Of a stretch of 64,000 nt of DNA, positions 27,456-32,144 are shown one piece after another. The notes under the pieces were generated by a model. It saw nothing but the letters and a program-made list of their open reading frames with translations, ran no database searches and was not told the DNA's origin. The translations under genes were made by a program, and so were the position numbers. The stretch lies in NCBI GenBank assembly GCA_028714695.1, contig JAQTLX010000002.1, forward strand, positions 62,001 through 126,000, in the 5' to 3' direction. Origin of the DNA: Ignavibacteria bacterium. GTDB lineage: Bacteria > Bacteroidota > Ignavibacteria > Tepidaquicellales > Tepidaquicellaceae. Within the stretch, counting starts at the first letter, position 1. Every line of letters begins with the position of its first letter.

Positions 27456-27501
27456 GATATATCCAACAACGGGTTTAATAACCCGGGTTGTTGGATATAT
27501 C
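27456..27501. repeat. Long perfect hairpin between the IS end and the transposase start
   Basis: GATATATCCAACAAC and its exact complement GTTGTTGGATATATC flank a centre with a further GGG/CCC pairing. In RNA this would make a very stable stem just ahead of the transposase start. Known ISs use such hairpins to block read-through expression of transposase. Confidence 0.7.
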
Positions 27502-27541
27502 AGGATTTAAAATTAAATTTATAAACTTTAAATACAGAAAA

Positions 27542-28603
27542 ATGAAGAAGAAAGAAAAACAACCGCCCATACTTCCCTCGGAAGTATTCAAGAGCCTCAA
27601 GACAGGCAAAGACCTTAATGAATTTCTGGACAAGATATACAAACAAGGCGTAGAAGCTCTGCTCAATGCCGAGATGGACGAACATCTGGGCTATCCCAAA
27701 CACGGATTTAAACCGGAAGGTTCAAAGAACATCAGAAACGGCAGAAGCAGCAAGACGCTGAAATCAGACAACGGTGATATAGAAATAACCATACCCCGTG
27801 ACAGGGAAAGTTCATTTGAGCCGATAATTGTTCCAAAGCATCAACGAATGTCGGCAGAAATAGAAGACGTAATAATAGGAATGTACTCAAGAGGAATGAC
27901 AACCAGGGATATAGAAGAACAGATAAAACAGATATACGGAGTAGAATTAAGCGAGACATCGGTATCGAATATTACAGCAAAAATAATTGATAATGTAAAG
28001 CAATGGCAGTAACGTTCGTTAGAGAGCGTATATTATATTTTGTGGATGAACGGAATAAGTTTTAAAGTGCGTCATAACGGGAAAGTAATCAATAAAATGG
28101 TATATCTGGTAATAGGCTTGAATAAGGCAGGTATGAAGGAAGTACTGGGGATGTGGATAGATACAAGCGAGAGTGCATCATTCTAGCATAGCGTTTTAAC
28201 CGAATTAAAATCACGAGGAGTTGAGGATTTACTCATTGCCTCAACCGATAACCTGAAGGGATTTACCGATGCAATAAAAAGCTTATTCCCTCAGGCGGAG
28301 ATACAGTTATGTATAGTTTATCAAATCCGCAACTCAATATGGTACGTTATGTGGAAAGACAAGAAGGAATTTGTGACTAACTTAAAAAACGTTTATGGCT
28401 CACTCAACCGTCAATCATCATAAAAAGCTATGCTGGATTTTACGGACCAAAAGTGTTTATCCTGACGACTAATCCGTATTGAAATCGTTTTATCTCTCAA
28501 TAATGAATTAGAAAAAAGATGGAGCCACAATATAAGAAACTGGGGGCTTATTCTAAGTCAATTTTTAAATATCTTTGAAGATAGATGCAGGTTCAATTTT
28601 TAA
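27542..28603 (+). pseudogene. IS256-family (mutator-type) transposase, inactivated
   Basis: The first 156 codons are open: IKQIYGVELSETSVSNIT and GMYSRGMTTRDIEEQ are typical of IS256/Transposase_mut, and MDEHLGYPKHG lies near the N-terminus. A nonsense TAA at 28010 replaces a sense codon in WQ.RSLESVYYILWM. A TAG near 28183 stands where Trp is expected before HSVLTELKSRGVEDLLIASTDNLKGF. Further stops follow and about 50 codons are missing before the conserved end (ELEKRWSHNIRNWGLILSQF). The start is ATG 27542; the longer frame reads through the hairpin. Confidence 0.88.
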
Positions 28604-28830: not shown

Positions 28831-29286
28831 ATGAATACGTTTGAAAATTTAAAAATATCGCAATTAGACAAAAAAGTAAGTGCTTTGTCTAATTTTGAAG
28901 TTCCAAAAACCGGATGGATTTATTTGGTTAGAAAAACACTCGGGATGACTTTTGCCTATTTGGCAAAAAAATATAATACTTCACCGCAGGTAATTAAAAA
29001 ATTGGAGCAAAACGAAATTGATGGTTCAATTACTTTGAATACATTACATAAGATTGCAGGTATTATGCATTGTCGATTTGTTTATGCATTCGTTCCGGAG
29101 GGATCGTTCGAAAAAATTATTGACGATAGTATAGAAAAAGTATCTGAGAATATGATTAATCGGGTATCAAATACTATGTCTCTCGAATCACAGTTACCGG
29201 GTAAAAATGAAATCCAAAGACAAAAAAATGAATTAAAGAATAATCTGAAAATGAATTACAAAAAAATCTGGAAATATGAAATTTGA
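28831..29286 (+). CDS. Mobile mystery protein A, XRE-type regulator (antitoxin-like)
   Basis: The 151-residue protein has a helix-turn-helix core (GMTFAYLAKKYNTSPQVIKKLEQNEIDGSITLNTLHKIAGIM), preceded by PKTGWIYLVRKTLGMT and followed by CRFVYAFVPEGSFE. These features are those of mobile mystery protein A, a DNA-binding partner of the Fic-domain protein B in mobile two-gene modules. The final 50 residues are charged and helical. Two tandem palindromes precede the gene. The partner gene is reduced to a 3' fragment directly downstream, so this is an orphan antitoxin-like regulator. Confidence 0.8.
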   Translation: MNTFENLKISQLDKKVSALSNFEVPKTGWIYLVRKTLGMTFAYLAKKYNTSPQVIKKLEQNEIDGSITLNTLHKIAGIMHCRFVYAFVPEGSFEKIIDDSIEKVSENMINRVSNTMSLESQLPGKNEIQRQKNELKNNLKMNYKKIWKYEI

Positions 29287-29294
29287 CTATCTAA

Positions 29295-29480
29295 AATGAA
29301 AACGGCAGGCATTCAAGATTGGTAACAGATATGCTAATGAAAAGTTTAAATCAAACAATATTTACATGGGGTAGCAAGGATTTATACCATGAGGGTGATG
29401 TAAGAAATAAATATATTTCGGCTTTGATTGAAGCTGATAAAAATAATTATAAACCTTTAATCGAATTTGTCAGAAAATAA
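29295..29480 (+). pseudogene. 3' remnant of mobile mystery protein B (Fic domain)
   Basis: An open stretch without its own start reads NENGRHSRLVTDMLM, then TIFTWGSKDL, DVRNKYISALIEADKNNY and KPLIEFVRK. NENGRH corresponds to the end of the Fic motif HPFxx(G/N)NGR, but the catalytic His and all preceding residues are gone. A stop codon immediately precedes the fragment. The toxin-like partner is therefore inactivated while gene A persists. Confidence 0.75.
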
Positions 29481-29597: not shown

Positions 29598-30956
29598 ATG
29601 TTTAATAGGCAAATTTTGAGGGTATTGAGTAACTGGGCTGAAAAAAAAGGCAGAAAACCCTTGATACTCAGAGGAGCAAGGCAGGTTGGCAAGACAACTG
29701 TCGTGAATCAATTTTCCATGCAATTTGATGAATATCTGTATTTGAATCTTGAACTCAAGGAAGATAAACAGCCGTTTATCAACTTTGATAATGTAGACAA
29801 ATTAGTAGAGGCGATTTTCTTTCTTAAAAATAAGTCATATTCGAAAAATAGTAAAACACTTATTTTTATAGATGAAATTCAGTTTGTACCGGAAGCAGTA
29901 AATATCCTCAGGTATTTTTATGAACTTTACCCGGATTTATATGTCATAGCGGCGGGTTCAATGCTCGAAAGTGTTTTCAATAATGAAATCACTTTTCCCG
30001 TAGGCAGGGTTGAATATTTAGTCCTGAGACCTGCATCGTTTCCGGAATTTCTTGATGCAATGAATGAGCAATCTGCTTTGACTCAATTGGGAAAAATCCC
30101 ATTAGAGGATTTCGCTTATAGCAAATTGCTTTCTTTGTTCCATACTTATGCATTGATTGGTGGTATGCCTGAAATAATAAACAATTATGCTAAGAACAAA
30201 GACCTGGCAGGTTTGAAGGGAATCTATGAATCACTTTTGGCTTCATACATAGATGATGTTGAAAAATACGGGAAGAATCCGAATCAGACACAAATTTTGA
30301 GACATACAATTAGGTCTTCATTTGCTGAGGCAGGAAAGCGAATTAAGTATCATGGTTTTGGTAATTCCAACTATGGTTCAAGAGAAATGGGAGAGGCGCT
30401 GAGAACGCTTGAAAAAGCCCTGCTTATAAATATAGTTTTTCCTCAAACAAGTACTGTTCTTCCGTTATTGCCGGATAAAAAAAAATCTCCTCGATTGCAA
30501 TTATTGGATACGGGTCTTATAAATTATTTTCTTGGTATCCGGAAAGAAATATTCAATTCTAAAGATTTGAACTCTGTACATAAAGGAACAGTTATCGAAC
30601 ACTTAGTCGGTCAGGAATTGCTCGCTCCGCAGTATGACGCATTGAGTGCTTTGAATTTCTGGGTAAGGGAGAAAAATACATCATTGGCAGAAATAGATTA
30701 TTTGTATCAATATGATACTAAACTTATACCTATTGAAGTTAAATCCGGTTCTGAAGGCAGATTAAAATCTCTTCATATTTTTATGGATCTGGTTCCTCAT
30801 AATATAGCAGTCAGATTTTATGCCGGTAAACTTGATATAACGAAAACCAAAACGCCGAATGGCAAAGAATATTTCATCTTAAATATGCCTTATTTTTTAG
30901 TCTCACAAATTAATTTCTACTTAAATTGGTTCGAAAATGAAATTATTCGATTATGA
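29598..30956 (+). CDS. AAA_14/DUF4143-type ATP-binding protein
   Basis: The 452-residue protein has Walker A GARQVGKTT near residue 23, Walker B LIFIDEIQFV near 92-101 and the sensor-like VIAAGSMLESVF. The C-terminal DUF4143 region has GKSPR-like KKSPRLQLLDTGLINYF, GTVIEHLVGQELL and the nuclease-like FWVREKNTSLAEIDYLY ... IPIEVKSG, whose E-ID-EVKSG pattern resembles the PD-(D/E)XK fold. Such proteins are widespread, mobile and poorly understood; a link to DNA damage or defence is often suspected. It is an island gene behind a tandem repeat. Confidence 0.85.
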   Translation: MFNRQILRVLSNWAEKKGRKPLILRGARQVGKTTVVNQFSMQFDEYLYLNLELKEDKQPFINFDNVDKLVEAIFFLKNKSYSKNSKTLIFIDEIQFVPEAVNILRYFYELYPDLYVIAAGSMLESVFNNEITFPVGRVEYLVLRPASFPEFLDAMNEQSALTQLGKIPLEDFAYSKLLSLFHTYALIGGMPEIINNYAKNKDLAGLKGIYESLLASYIDDVEKYGKNPNQTQILRHTIRSSFAEAGKRIKYHGFGNSNYGSREMGEALRTLEKALLINIVFPQTSTVLPLLPDKKKSPRLQLLDTGLINYFLGIRKEIFNSKDLNSVHKGTVIEHLVGQELLAPQYDALSALNFWVREKNTSLAEIDYLYQYDTKLIPIEVKSGSEGRLKSLHIFMDLVPHNIAVRFYAGKLDITKTKTPNGKEYFILNMPYFLVSQINFYLNWFENEIIRL

Positions 30957-31688
30957 GAAAAATCTATTTATCCTCTATCTAAATTTTATCTAAAAAGAAT
31001 TATCTGTTCCCAAATTTCTGCATTGACCGCAAATATCAAATACCATATATTATTATGGCACGTATAATTGTTCTTTGACATGACATGAAAATATTTACTG
31101 CAACAAAGCGGAATACAAATATTTTTTCGGCGGATTTCCAAAACAAAATGATACCTGAAATGATACCTGAGGTATCATTTGTAAGCAAATAAAAATCAAT
31201 AATTTATCATAACTTAACAGCGTTAATGATACCAAAATGATACCTTTTTGAAAAAAACCGCGAATTGTCTGTTTTTGTGCTGAAAATCAACTTTTTCACT
31301 TATACATGGTATCATCTGGTATCATTAAATATTGTCAGCCTGAATTCTAAGTAGTGTCAACTCATGTGAAATATTAAGTGCATGTTTTTCATCTGTTATC
31401 GCTGATAATAATTTTATTTGACATTTTCTTGCAATCTGCCTGAACTCGATATTCTCGCAGCGATATAATCAAAAACCTCGAGGCAGGCCTTGCAAATTTC
31501 AAAGAAATATTAACGTAACTGATTGGGAAATGATTATTGTTTTAATAGATTAGGCTCATAATAAGTCCCGCTATTTTTTAATAAATATTATCAATAAATT
31601 ACTAATATCAAATTGTCAATCATCACATGTCTTCTTATTCTGGAATTGAAAAATCAGAATAAGTATATTTATCTAAAATTATTTTAAT
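30957..31688. other. Gene-free region closing the accessory island
   Basis: These 732 bp contain no convincing gene. The first half carries the ATGATACC repeat cluster (31149-31325). The remainder is AT-rich and includes short frames with stop codons; nothing was identifiable in it. Confidence 0.6.
31149..31325. repeat. Cluster of seven ATGATACC motifs in both orientations
   Basis: ATGATACC occurs at 31149, 31161, 31226 and 31237, and its complement GGTATCAT at 31172, 31308 and 31318. Neighbours are 10-12 bp apart, one helical turn. Two copies form a perfect 11-bp-arm palindrome, AAATGATACCT-G-AGGTATCATTT read in two halves. The pattern looks like a multi-site protein-binding array (operator, iteron or recombination accessory sites). 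Confidence 0.6.
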
Positions 31689-32144
31689 ATGAATTCAAGG
31701 GAAGAAAAAGCAAAGGTTATATTTGATTCAGGTCGGAACTGTGCGCAGTCCGTATTATCAGCCTTTTCCGCTGATTTGAATTTCGATGCCGGCTCGGCAT
31801 TAAAAATATCATCAGCATTCGGCGGCGGTATGGGCAGGCTGCAGGAAAAATGCGGCGCCGTTACCGGAGCATTTATGGTTCTCGGTATTTATTGCAGCGA
31901 TAAATATACGGACGAAAAAGAAAGAAAAAATAATATAAATAGTCTCGTACAACAGTTTAATAAGAGATTTACCGATTTGCACGGTTCGTCAGTCTGCAGG
32001 CAACTTATGAATTGCGATCTCAACACTGAAGAAGGCAGAAAATATTCTGAGGAAAATAAACTTAAGGATAATGTCTGTGCAAAATGCGTCCGCAGTTCGG
32101 TAAGGATTATTGAAGAAATGATTGATGTAAAATCTGAGCAGTGA
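31689..32144 (+). CDS. C_GCAxxG_C_C family redox protein
   Basis: The 151-residue protein matches the C_GCAxxG_C_C family (TIGR01909). It has NCAQSVLSAF near the N-terminus, SSAFGGGMGRLQEKCGAVTGAFMVLG in the middle (CGAVTG fits the GCAxxG core) and C-terminal Cys residues in SSVCRQLMNCDL and DNVCAKCVRSSV. Members are thought to be redox or metal-binding proteins, frequent in anaerobes. It starts the ordinary chromosome to the right of the island. Confidence 0.9.
   Translation: MNSREEKAKVIFDSGRNCAQSVLSAFSADLNFDAGSALKISSAFGGGMGRLQEKCGAVTGAFMVLGIYCSDKYTDEKERKNNINSLVQQFNKRFTDLHGSSVCRQLMNCDLNTEEGRKYSEENKLKDNVCAKCVRSSVRIIEEMIDVKSEQ

Follow-up and report, generated by a model that had tools for sequence, protein, structure and literature searches.

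Introduction

BOX, REP/BIME and RU elements are modular interspersed mosaic repeats that are partly transcribed. Pneumococcal BOX elements are short intergenic repeats that occur in many copies and are probably mobile (PMC3049150). The family described here is like BOX, REP, BIME and RU elements in that it consists of short modular intergenic repeats, has many copies and is probably mobile; it is unlike BOX in its rRNA-type promoter and boxA, in words that differ by unit and species, and in relatives that bear an HTH gene. The term 'boxA' as used for BOX elements is unrelated.

CRISPR arrays with boxA leaders share with the family a promoter and boxA placed before an untranslated repeat array, and the same leader was found at L167, L169 and L170. 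The family differs in having words of 6-9 bp at steps of 10-12 bp instead of repeats of 30-50 bp with unique spacers, and no cas gene was recognised by eye beside its copies in the source genome. A CRISPR array was rejected as the identity of the locus, where no identical repeats (about 20-50 bp) alternate with unique spacers.

In SPP1, the pac site lies at the small terminase gene and comprises three sets of direct repeats, and the SF6 domain was found to have little sequence preference for the repeats (PMC4737164). The likeness here lies in a small protein with an N-terminal HTH and further helices, encoded beside direct repeats. The difference is that no large terminase, capsid or other phage gene was noted near the units, and that the copies are scattered over the chromosome.

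The array in the window

The window is the whole 64-kb stretch of DNA that was analysed, and the features of the element that it contains are listed in Table 1. The original prediction had described seven sites, four forward and three reverse, within 177 bp at 31149-31325. An exact-match scan of the window for ATGATACC returned the same count, with four sites on the plus strand (Table 1) and three on the minus strand (31171, 31308 and 31318); the end position was right, and the start was off by one, at 31148. Start-to-start steps inside the groups were measured as 12, 11, 11 and 10 bp, in agreement with the 10-12 bp proposed, and the palindrome with 11-bp arms that had been reported is present as AAATGATACCT-G-AGGTATCATTT. 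In the calculated fold, a nested double stem can form between words 3 and 4 and the inverted words 5 and 6.

Table 1. Coordinates of the element and its parts in the window.
Feature	Position	Strand	Basis
Extent of the window copy common to at least one other copy	31010..31392	+	all-against-all blastn of 24 loci, segment -137..+245 relative to 31147
Promoter TTGACC, 17 bp, TATATT, in conserved CCATATATTATTATGG (31043-31058)	31023..31051	+	sequence
boxA-type antitermination site GTTCTTTGACAT	31070..31081	+	12-mer pattern GTTCTTTGAMAT
Words 1 and 2 (ATGATACC)	31148..31167	+	starts 31148, 31160; 12 bp apart
Palindrome of word 2 and inverted word (31171-31178)	31158..31180	.	inverted-repeat search; pairing over 22 copies
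Words 3 and 4 (ATGATACC), then TTTTT	31226..31249	+	starts 31226, 31237; 11 bp apart
Inverted words 5 and 6, 10 bp apart	31308..31325	-	site scan, inverted-repeat search, fold

The cluster had been judged far beyond chance, and this was borne out: ATGATACC occurs nine times in the whole 64-kb window against 2.06 expected, none of 100 shuffles reached nine, and the Poisson probability of seven in 177 bp is about 4e-20 at the shuffled rate of 2.06 per 64 kb. The flanking genes end at 30956 and start at 31689. The sole frame of at least 50 aa that overlaps the array is one of 50 aa on the minus strand (31036-31188), so that no gene explains the array, as had been stated.

Elsewhere in the window, a gene for Mobile mystery protein A was read at 28831-29286 (TIGR02612, E 5.1e-38) and is followed by a short frame (29319-29480), which may be a remnant of the Fic partner of that protein. 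A truncated Mutator-family transposase lies at 27488-28012 (Pfam 3.6e-36, profile positions 12-152 of 379).

A dispersed family in the source genome

The assembly from which the window was taken (G000; 3.85 Mb in 37 contigs) was searched with a 321-bp query, and 24 matches were obtained at 22 places. The figure of 22 copies is a lower bound; a loose first look scored 40 of 70 candidates. In a genome-wide motif search, as had been suggested with the original prediction, AATGATACC was counted 142 times, and its reversed control 21 times. Among full-length copies, the one nearest to the window copy has 75% identity to it over 306 bp. All copies are intergenic and their flanking reading frames differ from copy to copy. 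Copy extents vary, and neither clean ends nor target duplications were defined by the alignment and the all-against-all blastn. Units of the same genome also have modules with ATGAGC, TGACAC, TGATAG or ATGACAT words.

In the alignment of the 22 copies the shared order is word 1, word 2, inverted word, spacer, word 3, word 4 and T-run. Word 1 and word 2 are 12 bp apart in every copy (22/22), and words 3 and 4 are 11 bp apart in 16 and 10 bp apart in 2 of the 18 copies in which both are recognisable. Words 2 and 3 are separated by either 55-56 or 66-68 bp, two classes that differ by about one helical turn, except in one copy with a changed word, where the distance is 78 bp. These classes admit no common frame. 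The array is thus neither a decayed coding sequence with M-I-P-E repeats, which had been named as the outcome that would overturn the prediction, nor the remnant of a repeat-rich gene end, an option also offered at the outset: the copies are intergenic and their word spacings vary by non-multiples of three.

Tandem sites one helical turn apart resemble cooperative operators, and an operator array of a host regulator with other targets was considered for that reason. It is very improbable. The genome holds 37 TGATACC pairs (control, 0). Every one of them is inside an element copy, so that no outside regulon is visible; 18 of the 22 copies account for them, and the remaining four have drifted words. 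Moreover, the adjoining genes differ, and by reading the orientation of the element to its neighbours is mixed. The array is part of a larger intergenic element and not a lone operator. The proposal of an operator array was right to the extent that gene-bearing relatives of the dispersed element encode an HTH protein.

The suggestion of a lost mobile element held in so far as the array belongs to a dispersed element with 22 copies, and was not supported in its iteron-like origin: the copies are chromosomal and dispersed, and no replication gene was found among the ten window neighbours tested against Pfam. Nor were recombinase accessory sites supported: no recombinase adjoins the array and the four Y1 transposases of the genome lie elsewhere. 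A REP/RAYT system was rejected on the same four Y1_Tnp genes, within 1.5 kb of which only one isolated inverted word was seen, at one of the four, and no boxA. A viral origin was also set aside: 26 viral contigs hold a AATGATACC pair, a number roughly estimated to be near chance, and some of them hold 3-9 word copies, none with a boxA beside the pair. No viral relative was found for gene 2 of L237 or for the gene 1 alignment (both described below), and no relative in plasmids or phages for gene 2 of L238.

In a comparison with MITEs, the gap between Ppx and BshA was examined: G000 has a copy there, and the two relatives with both genes on the fetched locus have none (about 84 bp without a copy in G011, an unrelated gene in G001). 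The fetched loci of the six other genomes queried gave no BshA. The G000 array itself was absent at the DNA level from 38 relatives, in which three short matches were promoter-like or due to chance.

Tandem repeats specific to the locus crowd the downstream ends of units (L031, L036 with a 58-bp unit, L026, L028, L040 and L027), among them GCCCCATCGGGGC 58-mers and TTCTAAC- or TTCTTGA-like heptads.

Promoter and boxA

In the window copy the boxA lies 11 bp downstream of the CCATATATTATTATGG block, and both are just upstream of the array. Close placement of boxA downstream of a promoter on the same strand is, at the sequence level, the arrangement of boxA-led antiterminated transcripts. The 12-mer GTTCTTTGAMAT occurs 31 times in G000 (control, 0). 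With a slightly looser pattern, applied from 450 bp before to 250 bp after word 1, a same-strand boxA was assigned to 20 of the 22 copies; one of the other two matches on the opposite strand. Nearly every copy examined has a promoter together with its same-strand boxA. Eleven boxA sites of the genome remained, three of which are array units without ATGATACC pairs (L057, L058 and L059) and eight of which lie, by reading, in coding or leader sequence. Membership of the window array in a dispersed element family with an rRNA-type leader is almost certain.

The promoter type of the window (CCATATNTTNNTATGG followed by boxA) has 12 occurrences in 3 of 29 family genomes (control, 0), namely four each in G000, G011 and G023. 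It is missing from four congeners of G000, a hint of horizontal movement. Promoter type 2, GGTCATTTNT-N-TTATNTTTGTA with GGTCATTTNT about 33 bp before TTATNTTTGTA, was found 16 times in G000, eight times and once in the congeners G001 and G002, and in none of the 26 other family genomes; the control gave 0 everywhere.

The same 12-mer is the boxA of rRNA operons in the bacterial family. It was read in the 16S leader of G012 (L134), between tRNA-Ile and 23S in L094, ahead of tRNA-Ile in both L184 and L193, and immediately ahead of tmRNA in L180. Ten matches were obtained when named genomes were scanned for TTATWTTTGTA together with boxA. Three, in Bacteroidota, lead CRISPR-type arrays (L167, L169 and L170, with 8, 17 and 6 repeats by pattern) and two are array units of 'Bacteroidetes bacterium MS_R2_34'; one of the other five leads, by reading, a tRNA-Leu-like sequence that ARAGORN does not call as a tRNA.

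Further leaders were noted in passing. A boxA stands in the leader of a gene that reads as rare lipoprotein A (rlpA) in three genomes (L054, L181 and L196), where mRNA antitermination is possible. In G003, six similar leaders (L111, L113, L114, L115, L116 and L120) consist of GGGTCAA, a few bp, a second GTCAA/GGGTC and boxA, and for several of them a secreted-looking protein starts a few hundred bp downstream. At L231 (1501-1900, reverse strand of the locus) a type-2 promoter and an ATGAGC module lie directly upstream of an apparent groES, and this unit may touch the expression of that core chaperonin gene.

Pairing and folding of the array

A leader of this kind raises the reading of the element as an untranslated RNA gene, in which an rRNA-type promoter and boxA would give a long stable RNA whose words and inverted words form the stems of alternative hairpins, as an attenuator, sponge or scaffold. 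The exact same boxA leads 16S, 23S/tRNA, tmRNA and CRISPR arrays, and the orientation of boxA is nearly constant. The palindrome of word 2 and the inverted word keeps its pairing over the 22 copies (Watson-Crick pairs in 184 of 198 cells, a value equalled or exceeded in 21 of 10000 shuffles), with two-sided changes at 2 of 9 positions, and the mean folding z is about -3.5. Against this, folding has no strand preference (z of -3.5 for sense vs -3.7 for antisense, sense being lower in 10 of 22), and wobble mismatches of the antisense-only kind are as common as sense wobbles (4 vs 3). No Rfam family was matched, the search giving weak sub-threshold matches only. Conservation of the palindrome and folding are equally compatible with DNA and RNA and do not separate the two. 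One module, which has direct words and no visible inverted partner, favours a bound tandem site over a stem. An RNA gene is regarded as rather improbable.

Gene-bearing relatives

Five loci, all found through the boxA or promoter pattern, carry genes behind the promoter: L237, L238 and L058 in G000, L225 in G001 and L102 in G011. A gene for a small HTH-type protein (gene 2) is present in all five, and in three it is preceded by a gene for a second small helical protein (gene 1). Gene 2 spans L237:5827-6282, L225:2261-2806, L102:1823-2365 (minus) and L058:1842-2366 (minus). These three have type-2 promoters followed by two small adjacent or overlapping genes (L236/L237 and L232/L238 in G000, and L225 in G001). 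By tblastn on the fetched loci, gene 1 is 30-36% and gene 2 35-46% identical among L237, L238 and L225, with 46% for gene 2 of L237 against L225 and 38% against L238. L058 and L102 hold weaker relatives of gene 2 (E 6e-5 and 4e-7, respectively, with L238 as the tblastn query), by reading alone behind the promoter.

A word array and a boxA or boxA-like site follow gene 2 in four of the five loci. These are a TGACAC module and a degenerate boxA in L237, ATGAGCG words at the stop codon and then boxA in L058, boxA and then TGATAA-type words in L225, and the GCTACGTACTGCAAC block of L129/L194 and then a boxA-like site in L102; L238 ends with its contig after gene 2. An inverted word (GGTCATTT, i.e. 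AAATGACC) is found at the promoter of four of the five units. In all four loci tested the DNA 3' of gene 2 matches gene-less units: L058 vs L040 (96% over 51 bp), L102 vs L129 (82% over 73 bp), L237 vs L028 (73% over 153 bp) and L225 vs L121 (82% over 77 bp), matches of L225 from simple repeats being left out of the count. Gene-less units thus look like promoter and array minus the gene. None of the gene-bearing units was found to have the word ATGATACC; L238, the one that could have it, is cut by the contig end. A relationship of the window family to HTH-encoding units is quite probable.

The HTH assignment was examined with profiles and models. Pfam HTH_23 was above the cut-off in one of the five gene-2 proteins (L238, 4.5e-7) and below it in three, just below in that of L102; for L237 there was only a sub-threshold hint of a sigma-70 region-4 HTH. 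Taken each alone, three of the five proteins have HTH similarity far below the Pfam cut-off. The AlphaFold model of gene 2 has a confident three-helix HTH (residues 2-41), long helices and a disordered tail (mean pLDDT 68.5), and that of gene 1 is helical and of low confidence. Fold matches of gene 2 in the PDB are weak and confined to the HTH or the long helices; they include the phage protein 2ao9 and, with Z 7.6 and 2.0 A over 51 residues, 2lvs, which binds CRISPR repeats. No weight beyond 'HTH' was given to these matches. PHROG gave weak matches to terminase small subunit for gene 2 of L238 (E 8.9e-4) and L102 (1.2e-4) and none for that of L225, L058 or L237; fold matches of gene 1 were weak and included some small terminases next to unrelated folds, with Sf6 TerS at Z 5.6 and 3.7 A over 79 residues. 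With PADLOC, gene 2 of L238 gave one weak match (6e-5), which covered part of a candidate model, and no other match was below 0.009. None of the products of the gene-bearing units was above the cut-off for a transposase family.

Words in related genera

Related genera have the same layout with other words (GGTAC, GTTTCC, GTTGC and GTGATACA), and the module of word, word and T-run is common across genera despite the different words. TGACAC/TGATAC words are found in units of G001; GGTACAAAAT, GTTTCCC and GTTGC in G011; GTGATACAAA, three times and followed by T8, in G023; and TTGACCGTTT and TGCCACCG in G007. A boxA site in a relative is not always an array unit, many of the sites viewed being in coding sequence. 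Within G011, L128 and L130 have GGTAC words in common, and L129 and L194 align over promoter and boxA and have GTTTCC vs GTTGC as their words, which differ together in both direct copies and in the inverted/direct pair. In G007, the array unit L095 is about 400 bp from the start of a divergent cas9 gene; this was taken as coincidence, as its sister copy L110 lies elsewhere.

Template switching can make a word and an inverted word change together. A neutral mosaic repeat of the BOX/BIME kind, non-autonomous and without a binding protein, its words being kept alike by copying, by slippage and by template-switch correction at quasi-palindromes, would agree with such paired changes, with the dispersed copies in unrelated intergenic places, with the lineage-specific presence of the element and with the crowding of other tandem repeats around the units. 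It fits less well with a spacing of 12 bp in every aligned copy, with a module held in common by genera whose words are different, with the conservation of boxA and promoter as a pair, and with the HTH genes of related units. This reading is considered unlikely.

Proposed model

The array is tentatively read as the core of a dispersed modular intergenic element whose words are read by the HTH protein of the unit, a view that we hold at slightly below an even balance; the same measure of belief is given to the more general proposal that the words could be binding sites of the gene-2 HTH family. The repeated word is likely to be read by the small DNA-binding protein of the gene-carrying relatives, and the window copy would be a gene-less, probably mobile derivative. 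Binding, movement and benefit of the element are what we infer.

According to this model of an HTH-read element, the words of each unit would be bound by the HTH protein of that unit, and several such proteins would sit next to each other on tandem words one helical turn apart. By way of the inverted word at its promoter the protein would control transcription of its own gene, and with boxA RNA polymerase would not stop within the array, which is untranslated and rich in hairpins. Having promoter, boxA and array and lacking the gene, the window copy would be a non-autonomous derivative that can be bound in trans.

An extension of the model would make these units a new class, in which a small-terminase-like HTH protein has its own tandem word code that diverges unit by unit, with several private codes per genome and gene-less arrays as tags read in trans, e.g. 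packaging or transfer signals of a phage-like or gene-transfer machine. The extension as a whole is doubtful, and a role of the units as packaging or transfer tags is viewed as a long shot. A literature search, mostly of open-access journal papers, returned no published account of such units, and the element family is taken to be previously unrecognised.

A seemingly meaningless cluster of repeats is hereby tied to a transcribed-looking element family with an rRNA-style leader and an associated DNA-binding protein. If protein and word are matched pairs, the units would be a natural series of diverging protein-DNA codes inside single genomes, and boxA antitermination would be seen in use outside rRNA, tmRNA and CRISPR.
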